The notes beneath the pieces were generated by a model. That model worked only from the letters and a program-made list of their open reading frames with translations, did not search any database and had not been told where the DNA came from. This document shows, piece after piece, positions 92 to 619 of a stretch of 53,623 bases of DNA. Every line of letters starts with the position of its first letter. Position 1 is the first letter of the stretch. The position numbers and the translations under genes are program-made. Source of the DNA: Promethearchaeota archaeon (lineage in GTDB: Archaea; Asgardarchaeota; Lokiarchaeia; Sigyniarchaeales; SOKP01). The stretch covers positions 1-53,623 of the forward strand of contig SDNY01000007.1 of assembly GCA_004524535.1 (NCBI GenBank), in the 5' to 3' direction.

Positions 92-619
92 ATGAGTGAA
101 AAAGGTATAGTGGTAGTACAAGCGCTGGTGAAAGGCGGAGCGGCGAGCGGGGGGCCTCCTATAGGACCGGCTGTAAAGTAAATCAAGTCGAATTACTTAG
201 CCCAAGGTCCTACGGGGATTAATATCAAAGATGTTGTGGACGCTGTAAATGAACAAACTATGATGTTTAAAGGATTAACCGTTCCAGTGAGGATTGAATG
301 TGATCCTGAAACAAAGCAATTTGAAATATTTGTAGAAACTCCTTCGACAGCATCATTATTGTTGAAAGAAATCGGTGTAGAGAAAGGGGCTTCAAATCCA
401 GGGGAGGACAAGATTGGCAATTTAACTATCGACCAAATAATTTCAGTAGCTAATGCTAAAAAAGACATCTTTTTAGATAAGACATTTAAAACTTGTGTTA
501 AAACAGTAATAGGAACAGCGTTATCCGTAGGACTAACTGTTGAGGGTGTGGATCCTAGAATCATTCAAGAGAGAATAGACAAGGGAGAATATGACGATAA
601 AATAAAGGAGGAATCGTAA
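92..619 (+). CDS. rpl11: Ribosomal protein uL11, interrupted by a BHB intron
   Basis: Large-subunit protein of the GTPase-associated stalk base. Reading starts at ATG 92 and gives the L11 N-terminus with the glycine/proline motif GPPIGPAV, then meets an in-frame TAA at 179-181. The family sequence resumes in the same frame at about 206 (GPTGINIKDVV). Removing 175-204 (30 nt, a BHB-shaped insert listed separately) joins the halves as GPAVGPTGINI with no residue missing. The product would be 165 aa, normal for archaeal L11. It is followed 3 nt later by L1, then P0 and P1, the usual archaeal stalk operon. A conventional gene caller would call only the downstream part, from GTG 236. Identity is certain; the splicing is inferred from sequence and structure. 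Confidence 0.93.
175..204 (+). other. 30-nt BHB intron in the L11 mRNA
   Basis: Outer helix TAGGACC (162-168) with GGTCCTA (206-212), 7 bp. Central 4-bp helix GGCT (169-172) with AGCC (199-202). 3-nt bulges GTA (173-175) and CAA (203-205) lie on opposite strands. Inner helix AAGTAA (176-181) with TTACTT (193-198), loop 182-192. This is the canonical substrate of the archaeal tRNA-splicing endonuclease, which cuts after the second base of each bulge. Doing so removes 175-204, including the in-frame TAA, and creates a GTA (Val) codon from bases 173, 174 and 205. The reading frame and the conserved L11 sequence are restored exactly. Confidence 0.88.

Follow-up and report, generated by a model that had tools for sequence, protein, structure and literature searches.

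The canonical archaeal bulge-helix-bulge (BHB) motif has a 4-nt helix with a 3-nt bulge on either side and is occasionally found in pre-mRNA, according to a review of the splicing endonuclease EndA (PMC6379350). A BHB intron interrupts the cbf5 pre-mRNA of crenarchaea of the Desulfurococcales and Sulfolobales (Watanabe 2002; Yokobori 2009, PMC2738675). A 2020 paper gives cbf5 as the sole reported case in an archaeal coding sequence, apart from the 5' UTR case of that paper itself, and coding-sequence splicing in archaea had seemed a one-gene curiosity (PMC7714728). In the literature covered by our search, which included few subscription papers and no bioRxiv preprints, we found no report of protein-gene BHB introns in Asgard archaea. 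Asgard archaea are the closest known relatives of eukaryotes. Here we describe a 30-nt insert in the rpl11 gene of a Lokiarchaeal genome that is, with high confidence, a tRNA-type (BHB) intron in the L11 mRNA and part of a population of such introns.

The cbf5 intron resembles the introns described here in being a BHB within an archaeal coding sequence, in its lineage-specific loss and in its literature link to hetero-oligomeric EndA; the genome described here likewise combines a coding-sequence BHB with a putatively heteromeric EndA, as judged by eye from its residues. It differs in occurring in one gene of one crenarchaeal clade, at a gene and site not homologous to ours (the gene here is rpl11), whereas many genes appear to be interrupted in these Asgard archaea, by introns of 28-37 nt, at several sites per gene and with turnover between close species. 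BHB introns of archaeal pre-tRNA and pre-rRNA share the canonical hBHBh form, and the same enzymes would be expected to act on them, but the rpl11 intron lies in an mRNA, and what its removal would preserve is a reading frame, not the fold of a tRNA or rRNA. The BHB of HVO_1309 in Haloferax (PMC7714728) is an EndA substrate in an mRNA, as predicted for rpl11; it is located in the 5' UTR, whereas the rpl11 intron is inside the reading frame. From sequence comparison, tRNA-type introns in Lokiarchaeal protein genes seem to be widespread and fast-changing, with cbf5 as their sole earlier counterpart within archaeal coding sequences in the literature searched.

The interrupted rpl11 gene and its predicted RNA structure

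The window, by which we mean the whole 53,623-nt stretch of DNA that was analysed, begins at a contig end of a Lokiarchaeal genome assembly (3.66 Mb, 198 contigs, 99% complete). Its first gene is the single copy of the essential gene rpl11 in this genome (positions 92-619, + strand), directly followed by ORFs at 623-1354 and 1356-2255 that, judged by position, are probably L1 and L10. Read unspliced, rpl11 yields ...GGPPIGPAVK*IKSNYLAQGPTGINI..., the frame being broken by an in-frame TAA (179-181) within the 30-nt insert at 175-204. Without these 30 nucleotides the gene encodes a complete L11 of 165 amino acids with no stop and with the junction peptide ...GPAVGPTGINIK. This protein fits both of the L11 domains in Pfam and, nearly end to end, the NCBIfam model for archaeal L11, PRK01143. 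Exon 1 (92-174, + strand) ends two bases into a Val codon (GT^A), as set by spliced protein alignment, and exon 2 (205-619, + strand), delimited by the spliced reading and the Pfam and NCBIfam matches, includes the stop codon. The other window genes yielded no additional intron.

Sequence and RNA fold agree on a perfect BHB on the + strand, with a 7-bp outer helix (162-168 with 206-212), a central 4-bp helix (GGCT at 169-172 with AGCC at 199-202) and a 6-bp inner helix (AAGTAA at 176-181 with TTACTT at 193-198). The 5' bulge GTA (173-175) and the 3' bulge CAA (203-205) have predicted cuts after 174 and 204, respectively, where geometry and protein junction agree. At its borders with the exons the insert thereby has the canonical archaeal BHB form, a 4-bp helix lying between two 3-nt bulges. 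Spliced protein alignment, which is blind to RNA structure, placed the junction at exactly 175/204, and the BHB score is 20/20 at this protein-set junction versus at most 10/20 at other offsets. The region 155-220 folds at -25.3 kcal/mol (z = -4.4; none of 200 shuffles as good) with the BHB pairs present in both the MFE and the centroid structure, and the rpl11 intron ranked first in a blind motif-plus-coding scan of 850 kb of the genome. The first-pass annotation of this DNA had proposed a complete BHB with helices of 7, 4 and 6 bp and bulges GTA and CAA, which we confirmed base for base with all coordinates correct. Its claim that cuts after the second base of each bulge remove the TAA and restore GPAVGPTGINI also holds, as the spliced reading is an intact L11.

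Distribution of rpl11 introns among relatives

Genes for L11 from related genomes and from a GTDB scan were compared by spliced alignment. Introns were present in 27 of 51 distinct rpl11 genes of the Lokiarchaeal family to which the window belongs, at four sites and with up to three introns per gene, as in LW40_87 (L066), while many relatives have an uninterrupted GPAVGPTGIN. The intron of the window is missing in most relatives and recurs at the same site in a sister species (G004; LW60_4, L032), in which the pairs are kept through wobble changes. The three further BHB intron sites of the family are VTGGS^ASGG, GGPPI^GPAV and a position inside the Asn codon of GPTGIN. Within the genus of the window, two species carry an intron at the window site, G003 has one at the GPTGIN site instead, and G001 is without an intron. 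Beyond this family, rpl11 matches from the rest of the order, class and phylum were essentially uninterrupted, and no BHB insert was found in those with a stop that were fetched (L092-L095). Short apparent inserts (11-15 nt), and the long ones that distant rpl11 genes seemed to contain, had no BHB and were rejected as alignment noise, as was a 'site 4' label on L095. On the L11 tree, 10 changes were counted for site 1, 6 for site 2 and 12 for site 4, numbers that speak for patchiness only as the tree is poorly resolved, and covariation within site 4 alone was not significant.

These comparisons bear on the suspicion, natural for a metagenome assembly with rpl11 near a contig end, that the insert is an assembly error or the gene is decayed and dead. 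Against it, the gene is the sole rpl11 in a nearly complete genome, both of its exons are conserved in frame, the insert at the identical site is found in an independently named assembly (LW60_4), and BHB inserts occur in many MAGs at several sites. We regard error or decay as exceedingly improbable.

BHB introns in other genes

We searched 850 kb of the genome of the window (~23%) for BHB motifs joining two coding frames. Motif-only scanning is noisy in AT-rich DNA, with similar counts of forward and mirrored motifs past the top few candidates, and homology or a domain match across the junction was therefore required. A domain model spans the junction of scan-derived introns in cdhD (30 nt, positions 3057-3086 of L118, G000:C8), argG (30 nt, SGGL^DTS), an LsrF-like aldolase gene of the DhnA family (32 nt), tldD (30 nt), moxR (first intron, 29 nt) and cdhC (first intron, 30 nt); the scan also gave a 30-nt intron in an ORF with no Pfam name (L176). 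Homology-guided alignment, in which the motif was not used, added a 31-nt second intron in moxR, a 29-nt second intron in cdhC and a 30-nt intron in cdhA, as well as one intron each in the genomes G004 and G037. Including rpl11, eleven introns were thus found in 852,549 bases (~23% of the genome); by extrapolation from incomplete detection, the whole genome may contain ~45 if the rest is alike. BHB introns recur at 17 sites distributed over at least 10 genes. The interrupted genes include that of a core ribosomal protein and those of three CODH/ACS subunits, cdhC (two introns; L162), cdhD (L118) and cdhA (L173), which are all intron-bearing in this one genome. Lower-ranked candidates (L182, L181, L160, L114 and, on the - strand of G037, 152833 and 172718) were dropped, as no domain extended across the junction. 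Part of argG exon 1 (23 aa, 96% identical) occurs a second time near a contig end (G000:C118:28108-28176), perhaps as an assembly overlap.

The full set comprises 53 distinct introns of 28-37 nt, with boundaries set by protein and slid only if this left the spliced DNA unchanged. In all 53, the BHB score at the protein-defined junction exceeded that at every tested offset and that of the mirrored motif, and the central helix was complete in 48 of 53 introns versus 2.3% at 1164 other offsets. With one intron per site (17 sites), 67 of 68 central pairs and 76 of 85 inner pairs were formed, neither of which was reached in 20,000 partner shuffles. At the 10 sites that homology revealed without the motif, 38/40 central and 43/50 inner pairs were formed, values likewise never reached in shuffles, which removes the concern that the motif scan had selected for pairing. 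The central helix is imperfect or the inner stem weak at rpl11 site 2 and in L083, L089 and G4c, introns whose cutting would need an endonuclease of relaxed specificity.

Short hairpin inserts within coding sequences are also known from bypass elements, such as T4 gene 60 and the mitochondrial byps, and the size of the Lokiarchaeal inserts resembles that of byps. In translational bypassing the mRNA stays uncut and ribosomes hop the insert, for which matching take-off and landing codons are required. Such codons flank just 12 of the 53 inserts even with sliding allowed, and the window intron has GTA versus CAA, with no codon match; the inserts instead have BHB geometry, whose 3-nt bulges flanking a 4-bp helix and whose pairing with exon bases bypassing does not predict. 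We therefore judge bypassing very unlikely. Readthrough of the stop codon, which would produce an L11 with ten extra residues, would suit the rpl11 insert in that its 30 nt are a multiple of three, but 32 of the 53 comparable inserts have lengths that are not, the added residues would split a stretch of L11 that is among its most conserved, and the BHB pairing would be left unexplained; we give readthrough next to no credence. Group I and group II self-splicing introns, whose catalytic RNA core spans hundreds of nucleotides, were rejected because the inserts fall far short of such a core.

The interpretation of the rpl11 insert as a BHB intron, which the first-pass annotation had put forward, is strengthened by the intron-minus alleles that it had suggested seeking among other Lokiarchaeial rpl11 genes, by the sister-species copy with its pairing kept, by further BHB introns at three more rpl11 sites and in at least eight other genes, and by the presence of two EndA genes and one RtcB gene. 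The rarity of protein-gene BHB introns in archaea that it had pointed out is in accordance with the literature, where cbf5 is the sole coding-sequence case (PMC7714728). It was right about the geometry of the rpl11 intron and missed the scale, this intron being one of many of its kind in the same Lokiarchaeal family.

Intron turnover and the predicted splicing route

Seven genomes from five genera have the argG intron at one site; its inner stems vary in sequence yet remain paired and covary across genera, and most relatives are without the intron. The cdhD intron is present in the genome of the window and not in G003 or G004 (96-97% protein identity), DNA alignment with close relatives revealing a clean 30-nt insertion, and G023 has a different cdhD intron. 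Like cdhD, moxR is uninterrupted in relatives that are 96-97% identical, and it is so in all 40 other genomes with a match. This patchy distribution of the argG, cdhD and moxR introns means that intron presence is recent or unstable, whether by gain or by loss. Active, repeated and genome-wide gain of tiny BHB introns into conserved protein genes of this family is a possibility that we raise tentatively, perhaps by reverse action of EndA and RtcB and subsequent copying into DNA; were it true, a prokaryote in the lineage nearest eukaryotes would harbor dozens of protein-gene introns.

The cdhD gene differs from its intronless counterpart in G003 most densely over the 30 nt that directly follow the intron (8/30 versus 0-2 per 30 nt upstream), a pattern suggestive of co-conversion or of selection for BHB pairing and not seen in the moxR flanks. 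The cdhC gene (L162, G000:C32, 3414-3815) is nearer to that of a species from another genus (87%) than to that of G004 from the same genus (82%), a hint that an intron-bearing gene was recombined or transferred.

Two EndA-family genes (PF01974; G000:C100 and G000:C84) and one RtcB gene are encoded in the genome of the window, and two EndA-family proteins are present in most Lokiarchaeial genomes searched. In one of the two EndA proteins of the genome of the window the catalytic Tyr/His/Lys residues are intact and in the other the His is missing (residues judged by eye), as would be expected of an alpha-beta enzyme. In the route that we infer, the rpl11 transcript would fold into the canonical BHB, a two-subunit (alpha plus beta) EndA would cut both 3-nt bulges after the second base, and RtcB would then ligate the exons, so that an mRNA for full-length L11 would be formed before translation. 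The rpl11 intron would be one member of a population of BHB introns, 28-37 nt in length and spread through the family, that are quickly gained and lost between species. If this is true, many genes of these Asgard archaea are wrongly annotated as disrupted or truncated, their tRNA-splicing enzymes serve mRNA genome-wide as well, and intron gain and loss are open to study between close species in the group nearest eukaryotes.

In a 400-kb region of G037 (1.0-1.4 Mb, L131-L150), seven of the eight tRNA genes detected by ARAGORN were found only when an intron of ~30-40 nt or more was allowed, which indicates that the splicing machinery is in heavy use. Standard annotation would miss these seven intron-bearing tRNA genes.
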